This document shows positions 5,106-60,461 of a stretch of 64,000 nucleotides of DNA, in pieces. The notes beneath the pieces are model-generated. The model was not told where the DNA came from. It did no database searches and saw only the letters and a program-made list of their open reading frames with translations. The stretch is from contig OX485809.1 in NCBI GenBank assembly GCA_950295325.1, positions 13,826,001-13,890,000 on the forward strand. Reading direction: 5' to 3'. Position 1 is the first letter of the stretch; each line of letters starts with the position of its first letter. Both the position numbers and the translations under genes were made by a program. This DNA is from Polytrichum commune (Eukaryota > Streptophyta > Polytrichopsida > Polytrichales > Polytrichaceae).

Positions 5106-5700
5106 TTACATGGTTCAACAATATGGTTTACATTTGCAAGTCAATACGCTCACTTGAGTGTAAGCCCACTGAAAATATTCTTGGGTTGAGCAAACTAAAA
5201 GAAATTAATGCTCCAACTCATTGATTAGGTGCACCCATATACAGTTGAAACATCTGCCTAGGCCCTAAAATCTAATATAAGGCAGGAGCCAGCACAGCTA
5301 GACTAACACTGACCTCCCTACGCTGCTAATTTGGACCCATCTTGAGCCCATGCCTGAGTATACAGTCTTAATACATTGCACAATCGAGCAATGTAGAGTA
5401 ACACTTACATGGTCGAACAATGTAGTGTACATTCAAGTCAATACATGCACTACAGTTTAATCTCACTCTATATACGCTTTGTGTACAGTTCTTCTCAAAA
5501 TGAAACAAATTAAACTCCTTCCCATCAGGTCCTGAAGTAAGCACCCAACATACACTTTGAACATCTGCCTAAAACCTTAAAGTCCAATATAAGACAGTAC
5601 ATCTGGACTCATACTACCCTTGCTATGCCCATATTTTAGACATGTTTTGAGGCCCACGCTCGGGTATACAAATTGACACATCATACTTCTGATCCAACAT
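5106..5700. repeat. Diverged tandem duplication, unit about 300 bp
   Basis: Three ordered word pairs recur about 300 bp apart. CTTACATGGTTCAACAAT at 5106 matches CTTACATGGTCGAACAAT at 5405. The CACCCATATACAGTTGAAACATC block at 5231 matches the block at about 5538. GAGCCCATGCCTGAGTATACA at 5345 matches GAGGCCCACGCTCGGGTATACA at about 5648. The duplication lies just downstream of the CCCH gene stop codon and may be 3' flank or 3' UTR. Function unknown. Confidence 0.65.
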
Positions 5701-6392
5701 CCATGCATCCCTGATATGACCCAGTTGACCTGTTGGAACGGAGGGCCAACCATCAGGAAGGGATTGGACATATAACCTCAGCTTGTGGAGTTTGATACTA
5801 AGATCTCAAAAATGCATAGACCATCAAGCCAGGATCTCAACAAACAGATCTGTACTTGTATACACCTGCCAGCGGCTTAAGCTCCTATAAAGTTCAATTC
5901 TCCAACACTTGCAGGTGACTAGACCTGCACATGGAGACCATTAACTTTATGAAGTTAAGTACGCTTGTGTAAACAACCTGATAACAGTAGCATGCCAAGT
6001 AGTAGAAAGGTGTTTCCATTTACCAACCAGCACACATCAGTCTGCTGACAGTGGTCACTTCTATGTAGCAGTAAGAGCTCCGTTGGAATTTGATTCTCCA
6101 CGGCAGACAATGTGACCACCTCCTCAGGCTGCTCTTATGGATCGCAATTGTTATTTGAGAATCAGAGATAGTTGATTCGCAGCTTGATATTTGCCACCAC
6201 TTGAAAGAAAACATCTTCCATAGGTGTGGCATACAAGTAACAAAATCGACTTCCGCATGTCAGTCTGTATTAAGGAGCTAGTAGCTTAAGGGGTAGAGAG
6301 GTTACCAGATTTGACCATCTGCTCCAGTCCATACACAAGCACCTTAAGTTGCCACTATCAGTTCATTCCAAATTTTGCAGCCACTAGGCATT

Positions 6393-12300: not shown

Positions 12301-15300
12301 ACACTATCTGTAGCCTTGGCAAACAATATCCTGCACTCATCATTCCTGGTGCTAGGGGTGGAAGCTGCAACCTCAGACTTTTCATTATTCTGGTGTGGAC
12401 GACCATCCTGCTTCTTACCTGGCAATGACTGCTCCAGAGACAAGACAGAAGACCTCGACTTTGGGGAATCCTTTTTATTAGACATTTGCAGAGGAAGCTG
12501 GAAACGCCCCTTCTCTTTCATGTCTAGCACAGGCAACACCAAACCAGTGCCCGGTTGAGAGCAGGGAGTCCCAGAACGTTCTCGTGATAACCTTACACTG
12601 GGAGTGTGAGTCTTAGCCAAAGACGGTGAAGAGAGCGAGCCTGAACCTGTTGCTGTCTTTGGAAAAGTCAAAACCTTAGGAAAGGGCTCTGCTTTGTGGC
12701 CAGTAAAGATCACAGTCTGCCCAGATCTTCCGTCGCCTCCATTTCCAATGTCACTATTCACTGCAGAGTTATTGCCAGGTCCATGAAGCTTATGTGGCTT
12801 GGCTTCAGATAACAATTTTGAACTTAGAACTGGTTGTTTTGACAGGCTTGTTTCAGTATTAATATCCTCCCTTGTCTCACTTTGCTTACAATTTAGTGCT
12901 TCTAGCAAAACGTTTTCTGAAACTTCCTTTCCACCTTGTAAATTACCAGCACCGTTCCTGCAACAAAATAACTGTTTCTGTCCGTCATCTTCAATTTGGC
13001 TAGACTTTACGGAATCTGTTCTCTGACAAACAAATTCTTGCTTTCCCGTTAATATATCTTCTCTCAATTCAACACGAGAAGGGTTAGCTGCAGTTGACTG
13101 AAGCTGAGAGACAGAGCCACCTCGCCTCCGCCGCACTGTAACCTTTTCAGGTGGGCAATCTATATCCACTTCACTACCTTGAGAGACAATTTTCTCTAGC
13201 ACACTTGTTGACATAGGGTTTTTTACACCTCTCCTTGGTGCTGGAGCTTTGATAAGAACTGCCTTATTCTCCTCAGTTTTCCAACCATGGCAACCAGTAC
13301 TCAAATTTCCCTTGCCTTTGATGCGTTGCCGAGCATTTTTGTGTGAAGGCATCCTCTTTGTATCAAGAACTCCACTATGTTCAGCTTTCAATACCATCAT
13401 CTTTGGATAAAACTGTTCAGAATCATCCCGTAAAAATGGAGCTGGTAGTGACTGAGATTGAACTTTGCTCACCAACCCAGATGCTGCAATCTTTGATTTA
13501 TTATCCACCTTTGACATGGCACTGATATGGCTGTTCTCATTTAAGTAAGCAATCGGAGTTAATTGGGAGCTGCTTCTACTACCTTCTTCTTTCGCAGCTC
13601 CTCCAAGATGCCTTGAGGGTTTCAGAGGAGTAGTTCCATGGGGTTCTTCACAGCCCTCAGTTTTAAAAACCCTCTGCCGTGAATGAGCCTGTTCATCCAT
13701 TTCTTCCATTATATTACGCTTCCCTGTCAGCAACTGGATTGACCTTCGATCCCTACAATCAATTTCCCGACTGCGTCTCTTGCTTTGATGCTGATAAGCA
13801 CAAGGACTTCGTGACCCTTTACCTTGACGCAGGGACCTACCATCACCAATTTTGTCCCTAATTTGGGTATCTGAAGAGGGATTATGATACAAGTGATTAC
13901 CTCGTGGTGGAACAAGAGGAGACCGGACTCGAAAATGAGGATCACCTGACTGACGCCTGGGAGGTGTGGGGGGGAAATTAGACCTAGAGTGCAATTGTAA
14001 ATCTCGATGTGATTCCAAAGACAACTTTGCATGAGGTCTGGCATGATGAGAACCAGGTCCTCTTTCAGGATGGAAATCATGAGATGAGATATGTCGTGTC
14101 TTACTGTGCTGACGGCCTATCATTGATTGCGAATCACCTCTGCGTTCCAGAGAAGATAACCTCCTCTGCTCCAGATGCTTCTCCCTTTGCTCCAAGGAAT
14201 AGTGATGGTTGCTGGACTGGTCCCTCGAGAGAGACCTATCATCAGCAACCACTCGTAATTGATCAGGTCTTTCACTATCTATCTCCAGGTCATGCCGAGG
14301 TATGCGGTATGACCTAATTCCTAATGCCTCCTCTATCCTTGATCGCTTGGGAGATGGGGGTTCTTGTAGATTGCCATTCGTTTCTTCCACATGGCGTCGA
14401 TTTCTGGGATCGTGGATGGTCGCCACATTCTCTTCCTGTGGAATCTTTGGAGGAAAATCCCCAAAATATGAAGAGTTTGCGATTATGTTGTTATTTGTAG
14501 CCGGTTGTCCAGGGGGCGGTGGAGGTGGCAGTTGTCCACCATAATGTGAATGGGGCTGTTCTCGCCAACACTCCTTCCAAGTCAAGTCGGGATCCAAAGC
14601 ATGCTCCTGAGCACGATCACCTTGTGGCTGTGGCTGTGGCTGTGGCAGATGCAGTGCAGGAGGAAGCTTATGGGGATAGGCAGCAACTCGATTGTCCAGC
14701 ATTCCTCCTCCTCCTGAATTTGATAAACCTTCATCTGCAAACCAACCTCGGTTCGATACAGACCCTCCTCCCCCCGTGGATGATGATATCCCATGCACAT
14801 AATTAAGATGCTTCCCCAGGGGATCGTCTCCCCAGTTATTCCTGCTGAAATCTTTTCTGACAAGCATCCCCTCGTTGTTATTACGAAAATTCACCTCTGG
14901 CTTAGGATGCTGCTGCTGATGCCCAACAGCTGGTTCGTCCAAGTACATACCAGGCGGCCTGAACCCTGGAGGACATGACTGGGGTGTTATTGTCCAATCC
15001 GCCCTTCGTGATTGATGGCCCTGGGCTATGAGAGTCATATGACGATGTGCAGCCATGGTTTGCTGATCCCAAGGCTCCGATGTCATGACCATCGTCCCCA
15101 CGGGCATCGGTGGCAACCGCGAGCGTCCATCATGATTCTCCACCTTGGGCAGTGGCACATGTATGCTATTATTATTCTGATGACTCTGATGACCCTGATG
15201 ACCATGGCCGCCAGACACAGGCTCCATGCATATAGGAAACCCTCCATGACTCCCAACACCATGACTCCCAACAACATTAATCCGTCTCCGGTGGTCCACA

Positions 15301-15320
15301 ACAAACCCCGGCGGATGCAT
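6393..15320 (-). CDS. Five-finger CCCH zinc-finger protein, ZC3H3 / Arabidopsis C3H7 type (2080 aa, nine exons)
   Basis: Exons on the minus strand: 15320-10496, 10005-9792, 9369-9219, 8990-8855, 8448-8367, 8138-7871, 7672-7630, 7267-7164 and 6812-6393. Every junction is GT-AG and the phases agree, giving 6243 nt. The ATG has an in-frame TGA 18 nt upstream. Exon 1 encodes about 1608 residues that look disordered: Pro-, Gln- and His-rich at the start, then Arg/Ser- and Lys-rich. The small middle exons carry plant-conserved blocks (LFPWKR; VYTRSADGFSLHRSG; LKWTKSLEKRS). Exons 6-9 hold five CCCH fingers with spacings 8-6-3, 7-4-3, 7-4-3, 7-5-3 and 8-5-3; fingers 3 and 4 are split by introns. Known: animal ZC3H3 acts in nuclear poly(A) mRNA processing and export, so an RNA-binding nuclear role is likely. 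The acceptor of exon 2 could instead be at 9969, also in phase. No lesion seen. Confidence 0.95.
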
Positions 15321-16040
15321 CGTTGAGGCGCCTACTCAACCACCAATACTCCACTCCTCGTAATCACAAACACCTTCACAGATGTGACCAAATCCCACAT
15401 CACACCTCCCCGATCTCTTTCCACCCTTCACATACTCCTCCCATCACACAATCCTCCAACACACCAAAAGAGCTGCACAGTCTCTTATACACCGAGAAGA
15501 CTAAATCACACCAAAAATTACAACCAAAACAATAATCACAAAAGTGAAAAAACTCAAACCCTACCCTCCGACCGACTCAATTCCCTGCCTCCGGGAGATC
15601 CAAGACTGCCTCCAACCGTCCGAAAGCGTGCTCTTCGATGCATTCCAGTACCAAAAGTCCCGATGATGCGTGAATCGGTAACTACATCTAGACTACAACC
15701 ACTGAACTCCACCACTCAATCAAATCCTACCATACCTCCCGCTGAGTCGATGCTCTGGCTCCTGAAACGCTGTAAAGATGCATCGATCGTTCAAGATTTC
15801 TGACCCTCGATAAATGCAGCACTCCAGCATTCCCAAAGCATCGGTGTATCCGGTGCAATTTCGCTTGCAATTCCACCGAGCAGCGACGGAGGAGGTTGGA
15901 TTGTGGGGAATCAAAGTTCGATTAGGGTTCAGGCCGTTGGTTATGAGAGACTGGGCTACATCCCATCCTCTCTCTCTAGGCCCTCGGAAGGCCCGGGTAG
16001 CTTGTCTTCTTCTTCTTCTTCTTCTTCTTCTTCTTTATTA
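15321..16040 (-). promoter_or_regulatory. 5' leader and probable proximal promoter of the CCCH gene
   Basis: This GC-richer stretch upstream of the start codon has no conserved coding. A (TCT)n tract at 16005-16035 reads GAA-rich on the gene strand, typical of plant 5' leaders. I cannot place the transcription start or a TATA box with confidence. Confidence 0.45.
16005..16035. repeat. (TCT)n microsatellite
   Basis: About ten uninterrupted TCT units upstream of the minus-strand CCCH gene. Confidence 0.9.
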
Positions 16041-43085: not shown

Positions 43086-43772
43086 TCTCCTAGGTCATCC
43101 ATGAATTGTTTGCTCGACATGTCATCGTTGATGACCAACGGTTTTTAGAATCTTTGAAACAATGATTTCGTCAACACCCACCCATGCCCTTTGTTAGAGT
43201 TCCTATAATGTATATATGATTTTGTGGAATTTAACGGACGACTCGTCACGAAGGCCAAGGATTCGTGCCACTCAAGTAATTTGAAGGTAAGGGTGTTGGG
43301 AGCTTAAGTTAGATGGACCCCATTCATGACTCGAGTGGCTTGAATCCTAAGCCCATCGTGACTCGTGATTGTACCTAAGAAATAAAGGTTAAAGAAACGG
43401 AATCAATGTCCTTGCACTCGGTCGGTATTCTTTGTCTTTCTTGCGTAGCACAATTTGCACATGCAGTTTGCCTTGAAACAAGGTAAGGAATGAGCACTAG
43501 TAGGGTTAACCCTTGAAGCTATGAGAGGTCCATTATGGGGCTCAAGCTGCAATACGTACATGCGGGTTTAAGATTGCTTCTTGATATTTCTAGCTAAAAG
43601 TTTTAAGAGTGACAATGTGTGAATTGAGCTCATTTATCACATGCCCCATTCCAATTGAGGCAATACGGTAAGTAGGGCATGTGGGCCTTACGTCGTCATT
43701 CTTCTTAATTGTCCACACCTAGTTAAAGTAGTAACATCGAGGCATTCATAGTTGACTGAGTCCATTTAACTG

Positions 43773-44420
43773 GCCGGACGCTAAAGAACCCCTATCGAGC
43801 TTTGTGCGCCTAAGAATCCGCGTCCCCTGGCCCACGTGTCAGTGCCCAAACCATAACTTTTTGGACCTGCCCACGTTGTTGCCCGCACCTTGCCAGACCG
43901 GATGGAACCTTGGACGGAGTTAGCTTCAACGACGTTAGTCATCCTTCGAGCCATGGACCCTCTTCCGAGCATAGGGAACGTTCCCTATCTCCTTCCCATC
44001 GGTTTTCAACCACATTTGCTAATGTGTTATGCAAACGATATCTACGGATGTGTTATGCATCAAAATCTCTGGAATGTGTTATACGCTAGTCCCAAATCTA
44101 CAAATGTGTTATGCACTAAATCCAAATTTACAAATGTGTCATCCGTCATATTCATATTTACGAATGTGCCATGCACTAGATCCAAATTTACAAACGTGTC
44201 ATGCACCATATCCATATTTATAAATATGTCATGCGTCATATTCATATTTACAAATGTGTCATGCACAAGATCCAGATTTACAAATATGTCATGCATCATA
44301 TTCATATTTATAAATGTGTCATGCACTAGATCCACAATTTGAAAAATGTGTTATGCGCTCAATCCATATTTGCAAATGTGTTATGCATTTAATCCATATT
44401 AGCAAAATGTGTTGTGCACC
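43773..44420. repeat. Left terminal inverted repeat of the MULE, with about 12 copies of a 30-bp unit
   Basis: 43773-44060 is unique terminal sequence. About 44060-44420 is a tandem array of a 30-bp unit related to ACAAATGTGTCATGCAC plus an AT-rich half. The unit has no stop in several frames, so long meaningless open frames appear on both strands. Confidence 0.88.
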
Positions 44421-45719
44421 ACAAGGGAAGCAAGATGGCATGGCACGCCAAATGAGTGGACTTGATGGAGTTGTTACAGGTGGTGGGCTTTGTGTTCATC
44501 AGCATGCCTTCTGGGAGCATGGCTATTGGAGTACAATGCATATTTCGCGGCCCTTCCACATTGAAGTGATTAGCAAATTTTTGTTGTTGCAAGACTTAGG
44601 GTTGGGGGAAAGAGGTTCAGGGTTACATGGCCAACTATCCCATTCCCACCTGCACTTCAGAGAGCCTGCCACCCGTCACCCGTTAGGGTTTTCCGTTAGA
44701 CCATAGCCATTGTAAGCTTTCGTGCTTTCGAGCTCCAATTTCTTTGTTTACTCTTCTAGAGAGTGCTTGCAAACGAAATGGTGGGTTTACTCTGTTTTGT
44801 ATTAGGGGGTAACATGTATATATCAGGTCCTAGCAATTCGACTTGGCTCCACCGAATCCAGGTGATTGAAAACGTTTTGTTCAATGCAGAGATGTTTGTT
44901 CAGGCAAAGGCCAGCCGAATAAGGTGACAAAAGCAAGCTAGAGCTCCAGTGTCCAAGAGATGTTTGGGCATAATCGGTTGAGATCCTAGTGGTACCAAGT
45001 CCAACCAGTCACATGTTGTGATCGCCCGGTTTTTGTCTAATAAGTTCAGGTGTATCCACAGATTGTTCTAGAATGATCAGTTAGTTTCTTGGATTCTTGA
45101 ACCTCGGATGGTTATTTCTTAAGCTCAACCAGTTTGTCTCTAAATAGCAACCGGTTCTCCATTCATATCAGAGCTAGCTAAAACCCACCAATGCTAAAAC
45201 ATAAATTCCAGCTCTAACTGGTTTAAGCGACCCATCCTTCTCTGCAGAGTTCAGGGAGGGGAGTCACAACCTCACCTGGATATTGGAGATTGAAGGCAGG
45301 CTGCAACTAAAACTTAGCAACTACCATTGCTATCAAGTTCAATGTAGGCAGGAAGTCACGCTTAGCTAATGACATAGAACTACCAATGGGAACATAGGGA
45401 CCAGTGATCAGGGAGATTTTTGGGCACAATCGGACAAGATCCTAGTGTTTGCAAGTCCAACCGGTTACATGTAGACATCCTCTGGTTTTCCTGTATTGAA
45501 TTGGGGTATATTCTATAGATTCTTCTAAAACGACTGGTATTTTTCTTGAAGTCTTTGATCATGTGGAGAAATCGATTTAAGGTGGCAATCATAGTTCTTG
45601 ACTCCTTGATATTTGCAGGATTCAAACATGTAGTTAGTTTTTTGCTATGGTTGAACAAACAAAACCCAGGGTACAGACTCTTAAGGAAGGCTTTACTAGT
45701 GTCTATTACAAGCATTTGT
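44421..45719. other. MULE interior without recognised genes; one direct repeat
   Basis: 44960-45110 and 45415-45565 share GGGCA-AATCGG, GATCCTAGTG, AAGTCCAACC-GT-ACATGT and TTCT-AAA-GA-T words, in the same orientation about 450 bp apart. No coding recognised. Confidence 0.55.
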
Positions 45720-47590
45720 CACATTATAGTTCATTAATCAGACAATAGGGATGCTATCTTCACTCTAAAACATGATTGGTATGTCTTTTACTCTCCTTTT
45801 CTCTCTTGGTTTCCCTCTTAATCTTTCTCAGTCAGTAGGGTATGTGTGTCAGTAAGCTGTAGTTTCCATCTCGCCATGAGATTGTATAACAATAGTCTTT
45901 CGAGAACAATAGTCTTTGAGTATCACAATTGTCTTTGGTAACCATTGGCCAATGCATCTTCAATTCAAAACAACTCCTTCATTATTTGGTCAATGTTAAT
46001 TCCAATACAAGACAATTGTTTATTTATTAATTCCAGATTTAATCATTACTCACAACTTATGCAACTAACAAGGTTAATAGTCAGCTATAGTCTCGGTCGC
46101 CCTGCACAACCTGCAATAACAACAACCAGGGTAACACACAAGACAATAGTTGATCGGGTTAACTTGTCATTTTATACTCAAAGATTGGGTCTCTAGACTA
46201 AATTCCAATTCACCTCTTAATTAAGATTATAATAACTTATGCCTAGGTATCATTTATAATCCAAAGTCATTCTATCTTATGTTCGTTAATCCCTCTCACA
46301 ATCCTCACTTCTTACTCTAATCAACTGATCAGAAGTGATTTCTCATCACTTCAGTTGATTGAGATCCTCTCTTAATTCCATTCTTCCCAATTACAAACCT
46401 ATCAACCTAATTATACGAGTTCCAACTATACTCTCTGTTGGCTAAACTATAATCATTTCACTCCTTCCTGCCTCTCTCAGGCTAACAATAATCATTTCTC
46501 CTTGTGGATTGGCCTTTGGCCTTACACTTCTCCCCAGTGCCTATCTCATGCCTCAACTATAGCCCATAGTTACACTTCGTTCAGGTTAACTCTCGACCGC
46601 TCCGACTTCTCCTTCTCACAAGTAGTCGAAAGGTCTCTCAATAATGTTCTCTGTTTCCCCAGACAATAGTTCGACTCTTTCTCACTCTTTATTGGATCCT
46701 TCCTACTTCTTTCACACAGGTCGACTTCCAAACTCAACCAACATTGCTCACATTTCTTACCCTCAACCACATTCTCTCAATCTCTCTTTCTTACACAGGC
46801 TGATGATAGTTTAACTATGACCTTTTAGCCTCTGCGCTCATAGTTATACACTTCTTCTCATTTTTGGTTTACCATTTTGGTAGGCTCAGCTATATGCTAG
46901 GGTTTGCACTCAGACGATAGTTGCACAGTGTTTAATTCGCCAATAGTTTTCTCTCTTACTCATATCTTCTCACACTCCGAGGTGGGTTCATTCTCACTCA
47001 GTCTCCATTCATTCACAATAATCTGAATGTGCACAATTTCCGCTCTCAAGTTCATCACTCACCGTTCATTTCTCTCTCTCTATTCCGGGATTTCTCCTCG
47101 TCAATTCCAGATTACTCCATTCTTTGCCCACCGGGCTTCAACCTCTCTGTCTCGCACACACACTCTCTTACAATCAGGTCCTCAGACAATAGTGATTACA
47201 TTCACAGAAAATAGTTATCCAATCTCACATTCACACACTCAAAATCAGAAAATAGTTCGACGAGGCTTCGGCCATTCCATCGAATCAACATTCAAAATAA
47301 CAATAAGCTTCAATAGAAAACAATGTCCCGCAATCACTGCGGCGATCACTAAGTTTAATTAGAAGATAGTTCAATGATTATCCTCTCACAATCTCTGTGA
47401 TGAGGGAGACAAGTCCATAAGTTTAACTATGTGCTCAAAACTATGCAAAGAAATGTCTGGCTTCCTCCTCCTCGCCAGCCCTCTTAGCTCGGCGGGGAAG
47501 AAGACGATAGTTACAATAACTACCTAAGGGCACCTAAGCCCGTGCCTATGGTTATAACTACTTCCTAGTCTATAGTTTAACTATGTTTGT
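45720..47590 (+). promoter_or_regulatory. Region dense in ATAGTT / AACTAT words upstream of the protease remnant
   Basis: I count 20 exact ATAGTT or AACTAT hexamers between 45726 and 47580 (for example 46146, 46665, 46806, 46916, 47210, 47250, 47365, 47505, 47571). Many extend to GACAATAGTT-like forms. With A=T=0.3 about two are expected. The background is CT-rich. The spacing looks irregular, so it is not a simple tandem repeat. It may be a degraded repeat or a set of protein-binding sites. Confidence 0.5.
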
Positions 47591-49761
47591 CTAACTGGAT
47601 GGACTTCATCCATTTACTACCTATTTGCTTATTGTTAAACTAAAAGACCAAAAATTTGGCTTACAAAACACGTTTGGCAAGGGTTTAGGGTGTGATTTGG
47701 AACTTTTGAGTGATATGGATAAGAAGGGCTCAGTCAACAAAGTTAGTTTGAAATTTTTGCCAGAGGCTCTCCCGCGCTTTGTGGTTCAAGAGGATGACAA
47801 GATGATTGGTTGGTTGGGCCGCGCCACTTTTGTGAGCACTTGCATTTCCGGTCCAGAGGGATGGCAAGAAGGGGTATGTATCTTAATCCTTTTGATTCCG
47901 ACTACATTTTCAATAAAATGCGATGAACTTCATCAACATTTGTGATTTATAGATGATGTTGTGGGTTCAGCTTGAATATGTCAGTTAAAACTTATTATGA
48001 TTTGTAATTATTCTACTTGTATAAATAGTTATTAAGTTCTCAATATGTGTATGTAACAGCTTTTCGGGGGTGAAGATGAAAATATGCGGATTTATAAAAG
48101 TACTATGACACACAACAAACACGTAAATGCGGTTTTGTATGAGGAGGAAGAATACGAAACATTGGTGTTAGAGTGTTATTGGCAATCCAAGACCAATGTC
48201 AAACATTCTAATAACTGTTATATTTATAAATGTATTTATTGTAGTCAACAATTTCTTGATAAAAATGGGTTTTCATATCATAGGCTCATGAATTTATGCA
48301 AATCTTGGAATGGGTCTGGTGTCCTTAAAATGTATCATACGTGGACACGATCGAACAATTCTGAATTGAAGAGGATTGCATTGAAATTTGGGAAAGATAC
48401 GAATACACATGTCAAGTAAGCCGCGACAAGCGATGATGACCGTAAAAAAAAAAGACAAAGTAATGCAGGGACGATGGACCAGCATAAGAGAAAGAAGTCC
48501 ATTGAAGTTGCTGATAATACTAATATTGCGAGGAAATCAATGATTACAACGTCAGTTGTTGCTACGGAAGCAGATGTGAATGAAATTGTTGTAGTTGGAT
48601 GTTCGGAAACATATCCACTTGTATGTCAATCGGGTTGTATGAAAGTATACATGTCTCGTAATGCATCATACAATATGTCCAAGCTAAAGAAAAAATGTCT
48701 CAAATTAAAGTCGCAGAATGTGCGAAGGCCAAAGCAAACACATTTACAATTGAAAATCGGTTCAAATTTGCTCCTCCTCCGAGTTTTGTTCCACTCCATG
48801 GTTTATATGTGTTGATAGCAAAGACGGAAAAATAATGGATACCGAAGGATTTGTTGAACATGCCAGATCATTGCATTGACCATCTAAAGCGTCTGAAGGA
48901 TGAATGATTGCTTGGTGTTACATTAAGTAATTCTTTTGGGAATTGGTTTATTTACGAGAATTTATAAGTATGATTTTTTTCAAATTTTTATGGTCATTGC
49001 TTGTATAGAATGTTGGTTTGTTACAACATGATTAATATGTATAATATGAAATTAGTTTGAAGTGATGATTTATATTGCAGTAATTATGTTTGATCAAACT
49101 CGGATTTGTGCTTTATATATGTATGTAGTTAGTACGAAGTGCAGAAGAACGTGACAAATTAGGAGCATCTATTCGATTGCAGCTGAAAGCATTTCAAAAT
49201 TCTACTACTTCAACTGAAATTATAGATATTGAATTTTTGAGTCTGGAAAAGTATCTTACCTATTGTCTCTCTCTTTCCGTTTATAAAGAGGCTACGGTAT
49301 GTGATATAAATATGATATTATTTGCTTAAAATCAAACCAAAATATGCTATCAAACCATCTCATGGTGTGGTTTCGAGTGTGATATAATTCATATGTAGGT
49401 GATATAAATTGTAATGTTATGAGTCCTTACACATTACATGTTTTTGTTGGATGGGTGAGATCATCAAGAGGTGATGGCAGTGATAGTTTTACTACATGAA
49501 TAGCGAAGAAGTGAAAGGTGAATGTTCTTGAAGTTGACGTTCTTTTTGTTTCATACTATGAAAAAAATCATTGGAGTATTTTTGTCATGAGTGACGAGTA
49601 TTTTTTACACTATGATTCTTTAAGGACTGCCAAGTTCTACGATGACAAACATATTCGTATTTATTTGGCGAAGATGTGGACTATTTGGAAAGGATTTCGC
49701 AACGGACCCAATGCATGGGAAAATTGTACAAATACAAAAATTTGGAAAGATTAGTAATGCC

Positions 49762-50104
49762 TATCAGGGACACAAGAATGAGCAACGAGAGATTAAGTAC
49801 TAGAAAACAAGAACCACTAGGAAACTTGGATTAACAAGAAGAGTACACGATCAACACCCAGAGAGGTGAATTAGAGTCCTAAAGAGTGCGTTATTGAGAC
49901 TGAAAAATTCTTCAGCCTCGACTCCTATATATACTTCTAGAGTCAACTCGTAAGCTTCTAGAGAAGGTTCTACCAACTTCCATTGGAGGTTTCTAGAAGG
50001 TTCTAGAATGTTCTTGAAAGTTCATTCTAGAGTGTTTTAGAGACTTGTTTCTAGAACTTTCTAGAAACTTGTCCTTAGAAGGTTCCCAAACTATGTCCCT
50101 AACA
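49762..50104 (-). mobile_element. Solo LTR (343 bp) with heat-shock-element array, inserted in the protease exon
   Basis: Plus-strand ends are TATCAGGGACA and TGTCCCTAACA, inverted, flanked by perfect 5-bp duplications ATGCC (49757-49761 and 50105-50109). A TATATATA box lies at about 49926-49933. Read on the minus strand the LTR begins TGTTAGGGACA, and the heat-shock elements then lie upstream of the TATA box, as expected for U3; hence the minus call. The terminal CA has become TA. The insertion separates the His/Asp from the Gln/Cys of the protease. Confidence 0.85.
49991..50023. promoter_or_regulatory. Uninterrupted heat-shock-element array
   Basis: Seven consecutive alternating TTC and GAA triplets, each separated by exactly 2 bp (TTC-GAA-TTC-GAA-TTC-GAA-TTC). 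More TTCTAGAA words follow up to about 50080. Three units are enough for a classical heat-shock-factor site. The array sits in the solo LTR about 60-150 bp from its TATA box. Confidence 0.8.
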
Positions 50105-50418
50105 ATGCCACAGCAGCAATCAAACTGGGAGTGCGGTTACCATGTTTTGAAGTGCATTACAGATATTTGTACAAGAAAAAGAACTACGCTATAAAATATG
50201 TAGAAGATTAGTTGTTTGATATTTAAAAAATATATTTTTTACTTATAAGTTATAATATAATATTTAATATGTTATAATATGGATTGATTTGTGATTGGTT
50301 GCAGGACAAAGACCTACAATTTTTTCAGAGTGCAGCTCTTGATGTAAAAAATATGCTTTACTCGGGCATTTTAGAGGTGTTTATACCTAAAGAAGGCCAA
50401 GAAAGCGATTGGAAGTAG

Positions 50419-51445
50419 AATGTTGCTCCTGGGAATAAAAAAAACTGACAAAGTGTATTGTGAGAAATCTCAAAGAGGCATTAAGAAAGATTTCATGAGA
50501 TAGCCTATAACTGAATAACAAAAGTAGGGTATCCTAGTATAAATTATAATTGTAGGAAAATTCGTATCCGCAATAGATGCAAACTACAATGATTGGAATT
50601 AACTCCATATTTTTTTTATGTCCTCAAGCTTTATAAAATAAAATGTTAATTTCAAAATTATTGTAATCTATATGCATGTGCATTATGTTATGGGAAAACG
50701 TCATATATTGTTTGGTCTAATATTGTATTCATAATAAGAATTCATAAGTCAAGTTTGAGTTAGTCATATTATTTTGCATTTAGCAACTTGTAGGGTGGGA
50801 TGTTTTGTTGTTCCAAAGCTAATTTCTTGAATTTTGCGAGCAAAATAAACGTTGTATATATAGTGAAGGTATAGCTGGCCAAATTGATATCGTAAAGCTG
50901 AAACATTTACAATTAGGGTTTGAGAACTAGTGTGTCGGAGATTTTATTGTATGTTACATATTTATTGGAAAAAATATAATCAAGGGTGTTTTATCAAACA
51001 AAATGAGTCTGAAAATTTGGAAAATTATTTTTGTTAATATTTCATAGTAAAAAACTAATACAAAGAGTATGCGACTATGGTTGTAATTTCCAATGACCGA
51101 GACTTTTAATTCTTTACACTATTCTAGTTTCAATTGTAGGATATGTAACAACCGTCGAAGTTTTGCACTTCAAAATTGATACAAGCTTAAAACATGAAAA
51201 ATAATGATCATGTATATACACAAATATCACTAAGGTTTAAACATTTAGTATATCACAATGCAACCACAATCTGTTCGATTTAAATGAATGCTAATATGTC
51301 ATGCATGATGTCATGTCATGTCAATATGAGATATCAAATTTGTTATGCAAAACATATCATATATCATAAAATTTTTATTTATAACATATTTTCCAATAGA
51401 TAAATATAAATTGATTTATTTCCTACCAAGCTCTAATACAAAGAT
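50419..51445. other. Convergent intergenic space of the MULE
   Basis: AT-rich DNA between the 3' ends of the two convergent remnants. No coding or clear terminator recognised. Confidence 0.5.
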
Positions 51446-54090
51446 TTACTCTCCTCCGTAAGCATTATGCTTCTTGGATGGACCTCTAGAAGATCCTTCA
51501 AGAAGACTTCTATGTCTTTTCAATGAACGGTCACCATCACATGCATAAAATAATGTGGTGTTATTTATTTTTTGAAATGGCACCACACCTCTTGCATTTA
51601 ATTCTTTTTGTTTTCTTTTTATATGTTTCAAGTCAGCGACTAAATGTTCTTGTAAACCAGGGTATTCTATCACGGTTTGGATAAGAAATTCATATAACAA
51701 TATCATTGTTTTTTGAATCTTGTCACCTAGTGTGTTTTGTATGTCTTGTGAAAATTCGAGAGAAGAAGCTGCATCTCTAAGATTTCGATCAGGCAAAGAA
51801 ACTTGCGACAACAAATCGAGTGGATATGTTTGACCAACCGGATTTCCTACTTGACTTACTTGACTAACTTCACCATAAATGTTGATGATATATTTAATAT
51901 TCTGCTCTTCAAATATTTGTAGATTTGCAAACCATTAAGCCAATGGAAGTGTTCTTTGGGTTCCATCTCCATGCGAGCGTGTCGGATAATGATCTCGTCT
52001 TCAATTTCAGGGTACGACATTTTAAACACTTTCATAGTATGCTTATAAATCATTCATTAGGCAACAATAGGACAGTTGCACTGTGTCCACTTTGAATTGG
52101 GGGAATAGATGGTCCATACCTTAGGAAGATTGTTGACCGAGCCGACATATGCAACGTCGTCGTCAATGCATATTAGAACGTTAGAATCTGGTATGACACT
52201 GGCTCAGATAATAGCTGAAGCGACAATGCCCTCTTGGTTGCGATTGCGAATGAATCCAAAGGCCTTACATTGAATGCCGTACCAATAATGGGTGACCACC
52301 TCTCCAGTAAGATGATAAATCAACCAATCCATACGGCGGCCATTGAAACGTGCTTTCGCAAATTTAAATATACTCTTGAAATTCGAGTGATATGACTCAA
52401 TTGCAGCATTTGTGTTCTGCCCAACATGTTGAATGTTGCGACTACCGGTACACCACATGGAAATTTTATCCATCCAAACTTCATTCATGTATTTCATGAA
52501 TGTCGCTGCTTGGACGATTGCGTTGTATGTCACGGAGTTGGTTATGTGTCCATAACACCGGATCATAATCAATGGGACAACCCTTTCCATACATAATAAG
52601 TCCAATTCGTTGTAAAACAACAACTTTCTTAACATTGTCGTTAATTTTTTTGGTAGCATTTTTTGCCCATGCTTTTCGCACATGCCGTAAGCATAGAAAA
52701 ATTTGGGCAGATGGCCACACTTTCCTGAAGAAAATATATCAAATTCATAATTAATTATCAAGTATTTTAAACTATAATGAATTAGACATATGATGGTGTC
52801 AAAACCATGACCTTCAATCCATAACACATGCATATAAAAACCTTAGAACTAGATATTCATTGTATGATCCCCACAATAGATGCTTAAGTAATATTGCAAC
52901 AGTTTTTATGTACTTTTTAGAGCTCAATACATGTCAATGTGAAAAACTTACAATGCATAATATATATATATATATATATCACACTAAATCCATGACACGA
53001 TGTGTGCATATCATATAATGCATAACAAAGAGGGATATACATGAGAGTGTTGATTTCAACTTGTACATTATCAACAATTATTGATGATGGACTCCATGTT
53101 TCGTGAAGGCTCTGAATGTTGCAATGCAATGCATCAAGCACAAGTCTAAGATCATCTTCACGAGACCGTGATACGACAAAAAATGCTACCGGTATTCCAT
53201 TCGTCCAATCATCAAATACCATGACTGTATAAAGCGGATACTGGACAACCAATAGAGCAATAAAATGATGTTAGAAAAATGTTAAACAAATTTCATAATA
53301 ACATAAATTGTGCATAAATTTTTATGTTTAAACCTTTGAGATAGCAACATATCCTGGTTTGATTGGTTCCAAACGTCGCGTCGATTGCAATTGCACTCTT
53401 ATGGCCAAATCTGGCCATCATCTGTTGTTGCCATTCAGTCTAAATTCCAAGGCTGAATGGGATGTCTTTTTGATTGGTGATATTAAGGTCTAGAAGAGAA
53501 TGTTCTTGATAAAAAAAAAACACATAGTCAGGGTTTTCATGTACCCACATCCGTACGTTGATTGGATCCGAAGGATGTTTTTCCCACAATTCTTCAGCTA
53601 TCTTCTTGTAGATATTACGTACATCGGAAGGAAGCAAAAAAATATCCCTTGTTACCCGTTCGTTACACTTCGCCAACTCCTTCATATTTTGTTTGTGTTG
53701 GCCTATGATTTGAGGCGGAGATAATCCCAAGGCATGCATCTGCTCTATGCGAAGTTTCATGTCTTCAAAAATATTAGACCCCAATGCATGACGAAAGCTA
53801 GCCACTGTACTTCCATGACATGGCTCCCCATATTTATTTGTATGCTCTACATGCTCATATATGAGCTGACATAATGAGCCATCAAGATAAGGCCTCTTCG
53901 CAACAAAACGACGAAGACATCCATGCTTAATGGACATACCTGCCAGAGTTTTTCCAATTCTTTGTATCTTTTGGCCCGTCTTGCAAGTAACATGGAAAGC
54001 GTCATAGTCAGGGATAGTCTTGCGACCTCGCTTGGTTTTAATTTCTGATGATTTCTTTTTATATTTTTTTTGCGTAGGTTTTAGGAGCGC

Positions 54091-54700
54091 TGTGAGCCCA
54101 AAATTGATGCCCACATTGGTTGTTAACACTTGTAAAACATTACAAGTGGTATTTTGGTGATTTATGATTATTCACAAAAATATAAAAAGAGTGAAGCTTG
54201 AAGAAAGCTTAGTTTGAATCATTAGGCTTTTGTGGAGTGGATTTAAGTAGGAGAAGGACAAACCTTGGTAAAGTGTGGTAGGTAGAAAGCCAAGGTTAGT
54301 TAAATGTTTGAATTAGAATCCTTGTTGATCATTTGAGGGAGGAAGGCTTAGGAGATAGAATAAGAGTCTACAAAGTAGGAGGAAATCTCGAGGGCTTATC
54401 GTGAGCCTTGAGGGTGCTCACCCCCTCAAACTCACTATATAATCCCTTATTCTTCCCTCACTCATCCTCTCTTTCCTTCGTGCTCCTTGGCACTCCACGT
54501 GTTATAAGTGTGGGTGCGTGGGAAGCAAGATAAGAGCACGTGTGTGTGCATGGATGTAAGGTTAGGAGCTTGAAGAGGGCTTGACCTCTTGTTAGTAATA
54601 GTTGGGCGTGAATGATTTAAAGTTCAATTTATGGCTTTGTTTGAATACTTGAATTTACATTGATTAGCCTTATACTTATGCGGATGTGCAAAGTCTCTTA
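54091..54700 (+). mobile_element. LTR fragment, same family as 56734-58215
   Basis: Begins TGTGAGCCCAAAA followed by TGCCCACATT, like the intact LTR. It shares the CACAAAAATATAAAAAGAGTG block, the GGTAAAGTGTGGTAGGTAG block and a TATA box (about 54436). It lacks about 355 bp present before the TATA box in the other copy. Homology fades near 54690 and the 3' terminus was not found. Confidence 0.8.
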
Positions 54701-54720
54701 TTGGAGCATTTAGTTTTGTT

Positions 54721-55160
54721 GGACTTCATATGAATTTTTGAAAGCCAAAAAACCGAAACTATGTCCAAACTTCCAAAAACTAGTGAAAAAGTGTAGGTTC
54801 AAAGGGAACAGCGTAGAATTACGACCATATACTTTGTGGCAGTAGAAATATTATTGCATATTCATATAGAGGACTTCATTACCTATCCATGGATACCAAG
54901 AACTCATTTTTTGGACTTCATATGAATTTTTGAGAGCCAAAAAGCCGAGACTATGTCCAAACTTCCAAAAACTAGTGAAAAAAGTGTAGGTTCAAAGGGA
55001 ACAGCGTAGAATTGCGACCATATACTTTGTGGCAGTAGAAATATTATTGCATATTCATGTAGAGGACTTCATTACCTATCCATGGATACCAAGAACTCAT
55101 TTTTTGGACTTCATATGAATTTTTGAGAGCCAAAAAACTGAGACTATGTCCAAACTTCCA
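54721..55160. repeat. Tandem repeat, period about 192 bp, 2.3 copies
   Basis: The word GGACTTCATATGAATTTTTG recurs at 54721, 54913 and 55106. Units 1 and 2 are almost identical over their length. The array lies between the second and third visible coding pieces of the transposase, beside the LTR fragment. Confidence 0.9.
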
Positions 55161-56429
55161 AACTTCCAAACTTCGAGATTAAGGAGTGTAAGAAGACATA
55201 GTATAGACTTGGTTAAGTTGCGTATATTCCAACGATAGATTGGAATCATACATTGTGTTACTAAGAGAGAAATCTCTACATGTCATTATAAACTTCTCCA
55301 TTCGGGCTAGGACGAAATTGAAGGGTGGAGGCTTTTTGGTGACAAACGCTTGCGTGTCTTGTGGAACAATCCCTGTCTTATCCTCTGTTCCAAAGTTGCA
55401 TCTATATCTGAATACAATAGAGAATGTTAAGCATTGATAATTTGATTGTAGATTTGTCACATGACATCCTAATTATTGACATCTGCTATTGTCAAGCTTG
55501 AATCTCTCAAATCAGGGGTTTGATGTATAGACGGAGGCAACTATTGTAATTGAAGGCCTTATTTACACACAAACATTAGAATGAATAGGCGATGGTGCAT
55601 TAATATGAGAAATGGAGAGGATTGTAATGGATAACATTACCTGGTTGCAATGCTAGGACTGTTGGCTCTTAGATTGCTGAGGGAATTTGGAAGATTTGTC
55701 TTGATAATTTCTTTGGTAAATTTGCAAGGAAATAGGTCATTATTTTGTTCCCCAACTATGAAGTCATGAAGCCTCTCCCAAGGTATGATTGCATATTTGA
55801 TGGTGTTGTAACGACCATTTCCAGACAAAACTTGTTGAGTCCACTGGAGGTCTTCAAAGGCGAATGGGCGTGTCAGTGGATATTGAGTCGATTCTTATAA
55901 TCTCTTTATCAAATCTGCCTGTACAACTTGGAAATCCAGCAAATCAACTTTGGCAACCTATTTCCAACCATCTCTTTGTAATATATGTTGCAACCACAAA
56001 ACTCAGCAAATGAATATGAAATGTGTAGGTGGGTATATTCTATTAGATCAATAAGTTTGTGTCATTAAACCAACCACATTAACTAACCAATTAGAGACAC
56101 ATAGGACTCATTGATGATGATCCAAGCAGAGAAGTACATAACAATTTTGGATCTACCCTTGATATGAACAATAGATTATAGTGAATCAACCTAATTATCA
56201 GATGTAGCAAATCTCATAAGACTATATCATCTACCAGTACATAATCGAATAAAATGTGAAAAAAATACTCATACTAAACCTACAAACCATGTATATGTAA
56301 TACGGGACAAAAGAAGTGAGAGCACTAAGCAATGAAATATTTGCATCACATGCTAATAGAGGAAGATCGCTTCATTACAAGCATTATTTGTACGAAATAG
56401 TTGTTAGCACTAACAATAATGGATCTGTT

Positions 56430-58742
56430 AATTTTGTTGCACAACACATTTGTAGATCTGGTACATAACACATTTATGGATTTGGATCTGGTGCACAACA
56501 CATTTGTAAATATGAATCGGATGCACAACACATTTGTAAATCTAGACCTAGTGCACGATACATCTATAAATATGGATTTGGTGTATGACACATGACACAT
56601 TTTTCAAAATATGAATCTAGTGCATGACACATTCGCAAACCTTGATGTAGTGCATAGCACATTTGTAAATTTGAATATGATGTATGACACATTCACAAAT
56701 CTGGATCAAGTGCATGACACATTTGAATATGATTGTGAGCCCAAAAGGGTGCCCACATTTAGTCTTAGACCCTTGAAACGTTAGTTGATGCACTTTGAAG
56801 TAGCATGTTACTTCACAAAAATATAAAAAGAGTGAAATGTTAGTCTTAGAAGTACCATGTTGTAAGAGGCTAGGATGTGAGTTGTTATTGTGTTTTTACC
56901 TTCGGAAGGATTTGAGTGAATGAGGATAGGTAAGGAGAACTTGGATTGAGTAGTTAGTGAGTAGGCTAGTACAAATGGATGGAGACAACCAAAGTGACTC
57001 AAGAGGCAAGTGCATTCGAATTGGGATGAATGGAGGATCACATGGAGCGCACAAGTGGACCACCTCATCATGGCCACTTAATGGGGAAGGCCCAAGGAAG
57101 AATGCAAGGTGGAGGATAAGCAAATTTTCAAAGCACCAATCAAATCACGAGTTAAGCATCGTGGTTTGAATTAAGTGGTGAGCGACGATTTGGGAAAGTA
57201 AGGGGAGAAAGTTATGGCGGCGGAAAGCGAAGGAGGCTAAGTTTGGGTTGAAGCATCCCAAGTTTGGTAAAGTGTGGTAGGTAGAAAGCCAAGGCTAGTT
57301 AAATGTTCGAATTAGGATCCTTGTTGATCATTTGAGGGAGGAAGGCTTAGAAGATAGGATTGGCGCCTACTAAGTAGGAGGAAATCTCAAGGGCTTATCG
57401 TGAGCCTTGAGGATGCTCACCCCCTCAAGCTTACTATATAATCCCTCATTCTTCCCTCACTCATCCTCTCTTTCCTTTGTGCTCCAAGGCACCCCACGAG
57501 TTATAAGTGTGGGTGTGGGAAGCCATATTGGAGCACATGTGTGTGCTTAGTTTTTAGTTTGAGAGCCAAGGCTTGTTAGCCTTGAAGAGGGCTTGACCTC
57601 TTGGTAGAATTAGTGTTGACGTGAAGGATTTTAAAGTTAATTCATGATTCCAATTTGTAGTACTTTAAGTTCATGTTTTGAATACACGTGGTTGCAAGTT
57701 CCATGTTTAAGAGTTGAGCACTTGATGTTGTGATGAGTGCAAAAATATACTTGTGTGGATTAGTTAGTCTTAGTGAAGTTAGGAAATTCTCTCTCCCCCT
57801 CTCCTCTCTAGGATTTTAGGATTTTAGGATTAGAGAAGAATTGTGTGATTAGAAAGGGGTTGTTAGTAGAATTAGGGAAATTAGGTAGGAAGATTAGTTA
57901 AGGGCTTCAATAATTAGTGAGGTAGTTGGGGATTACAACTACAAAGTTGTGGGTTCATGAAGGAGCTGGGTTTATGAAGGAGCTGGGTTTGTTTAGTTAG
58001 AAAGTAAAGAGCTGGGTTCATGAAGGAGCTGGGTTTGTTTAGTTAGAAGCTAAGAAGCTGGGTTTATGAAGGAGCTAGTTAAATCCAAGACCACTTGAAG
58101 GGTGAACCTTGCACTATGGACTCATCCAAGTCCAAATCCAATACCGCGGAGGAATGTGAGCCCAAACCCACTACTCGGACTACGGACGCTTAAGGGTGGG
58201 GGGTTTGGCCTCACAATGATGCATGATACATTTATAAATATGAATATGATGCACGACATATTTGTAAATTTGGATCTTATGCATGACACATTTGTAAATA
58301 TGAATATGACGCATGACATATTTATAAATATGGATATGGTGGATGACACGTTTGTAAATTTGGATATAGTGCATGACACATTCGTAAATATGAATATGAC
58401 GGATGACACATTTGTAAATTTGGGACCGGCATATAACATATTCCAAAGATTTTGATGCATAACACATCCGCAAATATCGTTTGCATAACACGTTAGCAAA
58501 TGTGGTTGAAAACTGATGGGAAGGAGATAGGGAACGTTCCCTATGCTCGGAAGAGGGTCCATGGCTCGAAGGATGACTAACGTCGTTGGAGCTAACTCCG
58601 TCCAAGGTTCCATCCGGTCTGGCAAGGTGCGGGCAACAACGTGGGTAGGTCCAAAAAGTTATGGTTTGGGCACTGACACGTGGGCCAGGGGACGCGGATT
58701 CTTAGGCGCACAAAGCTCGATAGGGGTTCTTTAGCATCCGGC
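56430..58742. repeat. Right terminal inverted repeat of the MULE, with about 18 copies of a 30-bp unit, split by a solo LTR
   Basis: 58742 down to about 58450 mirrors 43773 to about 44060. The 30-bp array occupies 58216 to about 58450 and 56430-56733, interrupted at 56734-58215. Units alternate between two variants (decapeptide phases ending NMNM and NLDL), giving a 60-bp higher-order period. The array is longer than in the left end. Confidence 0.88.
56734..58215 (+). mobile_element. Solo LTR (1482 bp) with perfect 5-bp target duplication ATGAT
   Basis: Ends TGTGAGCCCAAA and TTTGGCCTCACA are near-perfect inverted repeats with TG...CA termini. The flanks are ATGAT at 56729-56733 and 58216-58220. 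A TATA box (CTATATAATCCC) lies at about 57434. Sub-repeats built on ATGAAGGAGCTGGGTTT occur at 57955-58075. The last 61 bp form a hairpin, because TGTGAGCCCAAACCC at about 58155 pairs with the terminus. No internal retrotransposon genes remain. It interrupts the 30-bp array of the MULE right end. Confidence 0.88.
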
Positions 58743-58751
58743 ATTCAACTG

Positions 58752-60461
58752 CTCACTAGGATCATGTAATGTCGACAATGATGAGGTCTATAATTTTTAG
58801 ACGAACAAAGTTGAGGTTTATGTGGATGCGGGCTTGTGATTGATTATCCTTGTAAGAGTTTGGGCAATTGTTGTACCCAAGCATTAGCATTTAGATGAAA
58901 CGTTATGGGTTAACCTGCAAATCGACTACGTGCTACCCTATCTTTACCGCTTCAATTTTTTTACCAATTTCCATATTCATGAAAATAAAAATGAAAGTTT
59001 GCATTATGCTTAGAATTTGTTTTCATTGTGCAAGAAAAATAATTCCCACATATTACTCCTCCTAAACATATGCAAACTCTCTTATTTGATCGGTTATAGG
59101 TTCCTCAACCTTTAAATGCCAAGGTTCAAAGTTAAGAATGGACATCAAAAAGACACAACGTTACAATGAGATTGGACTATGTGTTTGTAACATATTTGAC
59201 ACCATTCTACTGTTGGTGTAAAACAAAATAAAAAATCAAAGCAATCATGTATTAGCCTAGTTCTAAAACATGGGGTGAAACTCCTTGCAATTCCTATTTC
59301 AATCCAAATTGCTTGCAAGAACTTTAGGATATAGAATGGAGTTTGACTCATGTTCCCATCCTTACTTCTTGATTGGCATGTGCAAGGCTAGCTTGGCCCC
59401 ACGTACGATAGTCTCAAATATCATTTTTTCTTTTTCCTTTTGGCATGCAAAGTTAAGCCTTGATCAAAACTTGAAAGCCTCTATGCACAAGTTGCCAAAC
59501 TCACCGTTCAGCCAACTTGCCCAAAATTTGACCCAAACACTTTTCAGATAATTCTAATGTCCATCAAAAGTTCACATACACAAGAAGAAAACATGTCCAT
59601 TACAACCATTTGTTGCAACTTGCGACTTACATCAAGGAAAACATGAATAGATCATTTTGAAATCCACATGTCCAAAATTGCAACCAAAAACCTCATATTG
59701 ACAACCAAAATTATCTATCTATGCATTTCCTCACCTTGAGTTGTAATGGACGAGTTGCAACAATTGGACAAGTTTTTTTTTTGAGTGATTCCTCTGGTTG
59801 CTTTAAGCCATTTCTCTCATTTGCAAAGTGGGTGGCATATGAAAAACGAGATGAAAATCAAATAATGTCCTCACCCACTAGGTAAATAGTAGGTACCTTG
59901 TAGCACTATATAGTAGGAAGGGGGTATGTATGTTACACCTTTGCCTTTTTCACACCAAGAGATCACTGTAACAAAATCCTCCACAACTTGAAGTATATTT
60001 ACAATCATGAAAACTCCACCCCCTATAAGTAAAACATACATGCAAAGTGGCCCACATCTAACCTCAATTTAACGGCTTGGGATTTGTGGCATCTATGTGA
60101 ACTCATCCATTATGGATGAGTAAGCCCCACTATCAAAAAAATCCTTCAAGATTGGAGGCCGATTCATTCCAATTCAACACCACTAGACTAATTCGGAATC
60201 TTTGACTTCATTGTCGGAGTCAATTAGTTAACAATAATCATTTACATGTTACAATATAGTTCATTACGTTTTCCCTTTGCAACAAATGAGTTTCCGTAGA
60301 CACCACGAATCCCTAGCTAAATTCAACTACACCTTTTTGTCTACTTAGTGTGGATTACCATTCAGAGTCACGTGTTGCTATAACTTTTTAACCGAAATGA
60401 TTGATTTCTACCAGCTGAGTTTAATGAGATTCTTGGGCGTGCACACTAACTACACTGAATA
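58752..60461. other. Spacer, no gene recognised
   Basis: Only short frames (up to 88 codons), none with motifs. No repeat recognised. Confidence 0.5.

Follow-up and report, generated by a model that had tools for sequence, protein, structure and literature searches.

Within the window, the 64,000-nucleotide stretch of DNA that was analysed, positions 43773-58742 form one transposon, a single MULE copy of 14,970 bp in which the remnants of a C48/ULP1-type protease gene and of a transposase gene face each other (Table 1). The element is bounded by terminal inverted repeats, about 270 bp long in this family, whose termini are 98% alike over 269 bp, and by a 9-bp target-site duplication with one mismatch (ATTTAACTG vs ATTCAACTG), both as described in an earlier note on this DNA; the element proposed there is real, but its span of 43764-58751 took in the target duplication, the true termini being 43773 and 58742. 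Besides, the empty site with one target copy that the note had suggested looking for is present at a paralogous place, C7:13997200-13997699, where the joined flanks with a single target copy match 500/500 bp at 94%. The left-type end sequence was scored at no fewer than 40 places in the genome, and four other copies with the window ends are flanked by exact 9-bp duplications (TAAAGTAAC, GATCTTTGG, GTTGTTTGT and ATGGCGAAG), as is the largely intact relative B (TGGCACAAG); in relatives B and C, the inverted repeats measure 70-80 bp and their terminal sequence is similar to that of the window family. The window ends also bracket gene-less interiors of 1.3-2.6 kb. Ends without the interior had been named in the earlier note as a finding against a single MULE, but because each of these copies has its own exact 9-bp duplication, they are ordinary non-autonomous derivatives, and the single-MULE reading stands.

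Table 1. Features of the MULE copy, in window positions.
Feature	Position	Strand	Evidence
Whole MULE copy	43773..58742	.	inverted ends, 9-bp duplication, C7 empty site
Left target-site duplication ATTTAACTG	43764..43772	+	single copy at C7 empty site
Left terminal inverted repeat, starts GCCGGACGCTAAAGAACCCC	43773..44043	+	98% to right end over 269 bp
Left subterminal array, 30-/90-bp units, motif TGTGTYATGCA	44021..44421	+	TRF; motif scan
Nested insertion, 2,034 bp	45632..47665	.	8-bp duplication AAACAYGT; absent from C5 sister copy
Protease gene remnant, 5' part	47666..49294	+	aligned block common with C5 sister copy, 88%
CCHC (BED-like) zinc-finger exon, protease gene	48060..48395	+	51% identity to a relative, E=4e-26; alignment
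C48/ULP1 catalytic region, interrupted 49753-50104	49314..50200	+	exon match to relative; catalytic residues
Nested insertion, 352 bp, within C48 exon	49753..50104	.	not in the sister copies on C1 and C2
Transposase C-terminal region	51449..51934	-	homologous end '...GD.SLKRHRS.LE...' in relatives
Transposase exon, Glu 52398 and SWIM-like region with two stops	52018..52720	-	68% to L051 over 173 aa, E=2e-81
Transposase exon, second Asp 53072	52920..53270	-	Pfam MULE PF10551 E=8.7e-6
Transposase N-terminal exon, first catalytic Asp 53382, in-frame stop 53442	53353..54033	-	63% to L051, E=5e-98
Nested insertion, 1,255 bp, starts GTGAGCCCAAA	54092..55346	.	not in the sister copies on C5, C1 and C2
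Right subterminal array, inner part	56435..56734	-	TRF; sister-copy alignment; motif scan
Nested insertion, 1,481 bp	56735..58215	.	absent from C5 sister copy
Right subterminal array, outer part	58216..58466	-	nested insertion separates inner part; TRF; motif scan
Right terminal inverted repeat	58473..58742	-	match to left end
Right target-site duplication ATTCAACTG	58743..58751	+	one mismatch vs left

Comparison with sister copies reveals four nested insertions, 5.1 kb in total, inside an element of about 9.85 kb, the 1,481-bp and 1,255-bp insertions belonging to one family (84% over 386 bp). The 15-kb size of the window copy is due to these insertions, and since they are missing from sister copies, such a length is ruled out as a family feature: the "unusually large" element of the earlier note is a property of this copy.

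As for the transposase, the three acidic residues of the DDE region previously proposed could all be located. The Pfam domain PF10551 scores 26.5 bits on the window exon at 52920-53270, just below the curated cut-off of 27.6, and reaches 3.9e-6, at the cut-off, in the relative L051. A SWIM-like pattern CxC...CxH is visible, but PF04434 stays below its cut-off (E=0.13); the two in-frame stops of this SWIM-like region lie directly past 'CNCPIVA' near 52060. Among pairs with unsaturated dS, the transposase shows a dN/dS of 0.05-0.12.

The C48 remnant likewise displays the four residues announced for it, namely His 49569, Asp 49614, Gln 50114 and Cys 50132, the first two being in a different frame from the last two because the 352-bp insertion splits the exon; the same split explains why Pfam C48 gives no match on the broken window pieces. 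PF02902 (C48) is matched at 3.4e-6, above cut-off, in an intact relative to which the window exon is similar at E=3e-22. The four catalytic residues are invariant among relatives down to 24% identity, and the fold predicted for C48 in an intact relative matches Ulp1/SENP/NEDP1 (best E 4e-6). The dN/dS of C48 is about 0.13-0.22, with values up to 0.31 for nearly identical or most distant pairs; these ratios and those of the transposase show both genes to be under purifying selection in the relatives of the window copy. With exon borders as predicted, the second protein of the relatives comprises about a thousand residues, and this predicted architecture would unite on one protein a CCHC (BED-like) zinc finger near the N-terminus and a C48/ULP1 domain near the C-terminus. 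The zinc finger is recognised only by its cysteine/histidine spacing, its AlphaFold model being poor (pLDDT 47). No VANC-linked Pfam match, including DUF1985, was obtained in the exons of the relatives L051/L057 and L049/L055, where a divergent VANC domain could escape detection.

Genome-wide, 73 of the 74 transposase/C48 neighbours at most 15 kb apart are convergent, and they occupy all seven large contigs; this spread and the divergence of the pairs exclude one segmental duplication behind all of them. Upstream of C48 and in its orientation, 58 of the 73 convergent pairs also have a zinc-finger exon. The genome holds transposase copies devoid of C48 as well, some at 30-45% identity. The search for full copies sharing ends and both genes, advised in the earlier note, yielded three further copies with the window end sequence and an identical layout: the one at C5:14026774-14045397 has both ends and both genes, and those at C2:6.20 Mb and C1:68.73 Mb have both genes and one end within the stretch examined. 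They bear out a single MULE in which a ULP1-type protease gene (+) converges with the transposase gene (-). There are largely intact relatives, 10.7-12.5 kb long. In the window copy both genes are broken; it is a dead, insertion-bloated member of an autonomous-type two-gene TIR-MULE family. Its identity as a two-gene MULE is practically beyond doubt, and the protease is very probably selected for the benefit of the transposon.

The satellite-like arrays noticed in the ends were confirmed by TRF, with 30-/90-bp calls at 44092-44421, 56467-56723 and 58216-58423. They represent a family-specific version of the motif RTGTCMTKCA, which has 95 sites over 126 kb of element sequence and 3 over 71 kb of controls, an enrichment of about 18-fold counted in the same elements from which the motif was derived. 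Its sites favour the sense strand of both genes by 69:20, in six families they are more numerous than in any of 200 Markov simulations, and the enrichment recurs across families without alignable noncoding DNA. The tandem arrays differ family by family and are kept by non-autonomous copies; the most distant family, L053, is devoid of RTGTCMTKCA and has another motif, TGTAGTGC. Part of the sites fall inside open-frame spans, and in intact relatives they are also scattered over introns and the element middle, which rules out, for these relatives, a motif confined to the ends. A function as splice sites also found no support, the sequence contexts inspected giving no steady position before an AG.

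In the mechanism that we propose, an intact DDE/SWIM-like transposase would cut at the inverted ends and reinsert the element with a 9-bp duplication, in a cut-and-paste manner; of this, the analysis shows the 9-bp duplications and an empty site, and the transposition chemistry is extrapolated from the superfamily. The zinc-finger protease would bind RTGTCMTKCA, a motif that occurs all over the element and is clustered in tandem arrays particular to each family, and would there free silencing or chromatin proteins of SUMO or a related modifier, thereby allowing its own family to escape silencing in the way of a VANC/KIU-like factor. By analogy with VANC, such an anti-silencing activity on the motif arrays might exist, although we give it slightly less than an even chance. 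Motif enrichment, sense bias, family-specific arrays, their persistence in non-autonomous copies and VANC parallels were counted in its favour; the missing VANC-linked Pfam match, the poor zinc-finger model, the motif-less L053 and the sites in open-frame spans, whereas VANC21 sites are mainly noncoding, were counted against it. As a whole, a dead two-gene MULE with a motif-binding anti-silencing protease is the best explanation and probably holds. The broader proposal of a TIR-MULE clade in which a zinc-finger-guided SUMO protease would read a clan-wide RTGTCMTKCA and its lineage variants and strip silencing proteins, either before or independently of the Arabidopsis VANC/KIU, is speculative and doubtful.

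Instead, the protease may act in transposition itself: its targets would be the transposase, or host repair factors at the excision/insertion site, which it would free of SUMO or a related modifier, the motif being then unrelated or a host-factor site. Such a role was proposed for the ULP1/OTU domains of Ginger and Mutator transposons (PMC2836005), and purifying selection and long-term pairing fit it equally well, yet it accounts neither for the zinc finger that the protein also has nor for the element-wide, strand-biased motif, and we consider it somewhat unlikely. Arrays and motif could also serve in transposase binding or as promoters, unrelated to the protease; this reading has a parallel in the subterminal repeats of other DNA transposons, and is in line with window-family arrays that adjoin both inverted ends, facing inward, and persist in short non-autonomous copies; the occurrence of the motif in introns and in the middle of intact relatives nevertheless makes it fairly unlikely. 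The sense-strand bias could also reflect a motif acting on RNA, e.g. in splicing or transcript stability, a very improbable function for sites that are dense in arrays near both ends, outside gene bodies, and kept in short gene-less copies. Finally, while MULEs frequently capture pieces of host genes (PMC2528002) and the degenerate window copy would allow it, a protease piece passively captured from the host or adjacent to the transposase by chance is scarcely credible, and is ruled out for the family by convergence in all pairs but one, both-gene sister copies, purifying selection and a layout that is identical even in families with saturated dS.

Proteases of the ULP1 type are found repeatedly in transposons of the Mutator, CACTA and Ginger groups, and their precise function in MULEs is presented as unexplained by a review of 2026 (PMC13317346). 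The present genome supplies about 70 copies in which both genes are paired in a fixed layout, largely intact copies under purifying selection, a predicted zinc finger-protease protein and a candidate motif, which together would turn the transposon SUMO-protease question into a DNA-binding/methylation problem. The host genome has flagellar dynein heavy-chain matches (PF12774) and a tandem Lhcb array. This array and the size of the seven large contigs, 42-78 Mb, would suit a bryophyte or a lycophyte, a tentative placement. Because of its dynein heavy chains, the host is not a flowering plant, which puts the transposase/ULP1 pairing outside the lineage for which the capture of ULP1 by non-TIR MULEs has been dated. 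A search of the open-access literature, which is no proof of absence, found no ULP1-MULEs in bryophytes.

With regard to known systems, the 9-bp target duplication (8-11 bp in MULEs) and the MULE-type DDE transposase place the element in the MULE superfamily, its terminal inverted repeats among the TIR-MULEs, and its C48 second gene, inside the element and common to independent copies, among the ULP1-bearing MULEs. Its clear inverted ends set it apart from the Arabidopsis Kaonashi elements (KI-MULEs), which lack terminal inverted repeats. Hoen reportedly found in 2006 that purifying selection maintains the KI ULP-type gene in many copies. Descriptions of MULEs whose ULP gene converges with the transposase have been in print since 2006-2008; the "undescribed system" of the earlier note was therefore too strong a claim, and the window family is a variant of the known ULP1-bearing MULEs (Kaonashi, melon, grapevine). 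The KI protease gene is, as here, reversed relative to a mudrA-type transposase (PMC2528002), and in the descriptions consulted, on which the comparison is based, no zinc finger is mentioned for the KI protease protein. The melon (CUMULE; PMC5299730) and grapevine TIR-MULEs, which are angiosperm families unlike that of our host, share inverted ends, a transposase and a downstream ULP1-like region (PMC2528002), but there the orientation of this region varies, being opposite in some families, whereas it is nearly always convergent here.

The resemblance to MuDR with a protease in the mudrB position, also put forward earlier, holds for the layout, and for the layout only. The second gene of MuDR, mudrB, is not known to encode a protease. 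The maize element has, like the window family, long inverted ends, a 9-bp duplication and two genes (PMC9569675, PMC6446971). VANDAL elements with VANC/KIU have a second gene beside the MULE transposase and, in tandem repeats of their noncoding DNA, a short motif that differs from family to family (PMC5735166, PMC10398659), as here, binding to it being only a candidate activity in the window family. In Arabidopsis, VANC proteins bind such short motifs, arrayed in one orientation in the noncoding VANDAL repeats (PMC5735166), and some VANC genes have an ULP1 domain, which KIU genes carry (PMC13317346). VANDAL inverted ends are degenerate or absent, whereas those of the window family are clear, and anti-silencing is demonstrated for VANC and suggested for the protease described here.

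That the element inserted can be read from a 500-bp query containing both flanks and a single target copy, which matches C7:13997200-13997699 end to end (94%). This stretch, about 112 kb away, is an unoccupied paralogue of the insertion site, the kind of empty site that the earlier note had proposed to look for, and the match is direct evidence for the insertion of the window element. The claimed inverted ends are also present, the termini being 98% alike over 269 bp. Over 35 scored copies elsewhere, at about 80% identity, place the right flank (window 58742-59001) within a dispersed repeat.

Both convergent coding remnants previously described, a transposase and a C48 protease gene, were located, and both are pseudogenes; the SWIM-like region following the transposase Glu holds two stops, and a further stop lies at 53442. 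As for the element being unusually large, this holds for its present 14,970 bp, but 5,122 bp of these are four nested insertions that alignment with sister copies shows only in the window (45632-47665, 49753-50104, 54092-55346, and 56735-58215), without which it would measure about 9.85 kb. The last two are related, their repeat family starting with GTGAGCCCAAA, and the fourth interrupts the right-hand satellite array. Part of this repeat seems present also at about L057 5426-6220 ('PLLGLRTLKGGGFGLT'), in one of the relatives.

Features of the window element and its relatives (bare positions refer to the window)
Feature	Position	Strand	Size	Details
Whole element	43773-58742		14,970 bp	between ATTTAACTG and ATTCAACTG
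Transposase		-		first Asp 53382, second Asp 53072, Glu 52398
Protease gene		+		N-terminal exon, then CCHC zinc-finger exon, then C48 region
CCHC zinc-finger exon (protease gene)	48060-48395	+
C48 region	from 49314	+		split by 352-bp insertion
Two-gene sister copy	C5:14026774-14045397			both ends present
Two-gene sister copy	C2:6.20 Mb			one end within fetched stretch
Two-gene sister copy	C1:68.73 Mb			one end, lacking its outermost ~47 bp
Relative B			~12.5 kb	largely intact; duplication TGGCACAAG
Relative C			~10.7 kb	largely intact

Searching the genome with the outer 280 bp, as had been suggested, gave 40 scored places among 164-171 candidates. Many pair around 1.3-2.6 kb and are non-autonomous derivatives. 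Three others that share the end sequence contain both genes, with transposase and C48 arranged as in the window element. Exact 9-bp target duplications flank three derivatives and the 18.6-kb C5 copy.

The two genes form a unit well beyond these copies. At least 150 relatives of the transposase N-terminal exon were scored, along with 99 matches of the C48 piece; the two lie within 15 kb in 74 cases, mostly 2.5-5 kb apart, and are convergent with C48 downstream in 73 of them. In 58 of these 73, the strand that encodes C48 also has the zinc-finger exon, on the 5' side. Across pairs, transposase and C48 identities to the window copy, itself left out, correlate (Spearman 0.44, p=1e-4). Relatives B and C are bounded by their own inverted ends, whose termini (GGCAGACGCTAAAG..., GGCAGACGATATC...) are similar to GCCGGACGCTAAAG... 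of the window element. In largely intact relatives (L056/L054 and L057/L051), a near-perfect palindrome, CCCCCTACGA...TTGTAGGGGG, lies directly inside the terminus.

Both proteins are under purifying selection: in pairs with unsaturated dS, the transposase has a dN/dS of 0.05-0.12, and most values for C48 fall at 0.13-0.22. The catalytic residues of C48 are unchanged down to 24% identity. Pfam PF02902 scores above cut-off in the relative L051 and many others, and the AlphaFold model of the L051 domain (pLDDT 67) has Ulp1, SENP, and NEDP1 as best structural matches.

Noncoding tandem arrays, particular to each family, occur in most of the families examined, with almost none in L053 (C1:58.33 Mb), the most distant two-gene family. 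Among counted 7- and 8-mers, TGAAGGAC/TGAATGAC stood out in six families and TGCATGAC in the window family, each more frequent than in any of 200 order-3 Markov simulations. Their combined form, RTGTCMTKCA, is enriched in the elements (7.5 versus 0.4 per 10 kb in controls, p ~5e-15), as computed on the same data in which the motif was discovered, so that its recurrence across families with unalignable noncoding DNA is the stronger argument. Two of the three control matches fall in a single 1.5-kb flank; in intact relatives, 69 matches lie on the sense strand of both genes and 20 on the antisense strand. The motif is absent from L053, which carries TGTAGTGC instead; there (1400-9901), TGTAGTGC/GCACTAC occurs at 20 per 10 kb, dispersed and without tandem arrays.

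Catalysis would be ensured by the transposase, and the protease may have a deSUMOylation-type activity, with SUMO or NEDD8 as candidate substrates. This zinc-finger protein would bind RTGTCMTKCA and may thereby act in anti-silencing, which appears the most economical reading joining motif, zinc finger, and protease because of the VANC (PMC5735166, PMC10398659) and KIU (PMC13317346) precedents from Arabidopsis VANDAL elements. A protease acting directly in transposition (PMC2836005) is a serious rival to anti-silencing.

Several observations concern the host. At 1,675 aa, the open frame at window 10308-15335 (- strand) far exceeds every other one of the stretch in length; low-complexity and basic, it resembles a host gene. 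Elsewhere, no fewer than eight genomic loci encode pieces of dynein heavy chains (PF12774), a family known to be absent from angiosperms. The genome also encodes chlorophyll-binding proteins, and the two findings together suggest a plant whose sperm are flagellate. At C5:1751760-1846160, 14 or more Lhcb-type genes with equal domain scores stand in tandem, and C2 and C4 have additional clusters of ELIP-like matches with weaker scores. At L055 75-2756 (C5:33.908 Mb), a PHD-finger-like stretch closes the integrase reading frame of a Gypsy-type polyprotein.

Finally, the window copy is rated an ordinary decayed family member. Published accounts already describe ULP1-bearing MULEs in Arabidopsis, melon, rice, grapevine, maize, hydra, and lancelet (PMC2528002, PMC13317346, PMC2836005). 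Compared to these, the present family combines inverted ends and a fixed convergent layout with a protease protein that bears a zinc finger, a clan-wide motif, and a non-angiosperm host, and is therefore a variant among them.
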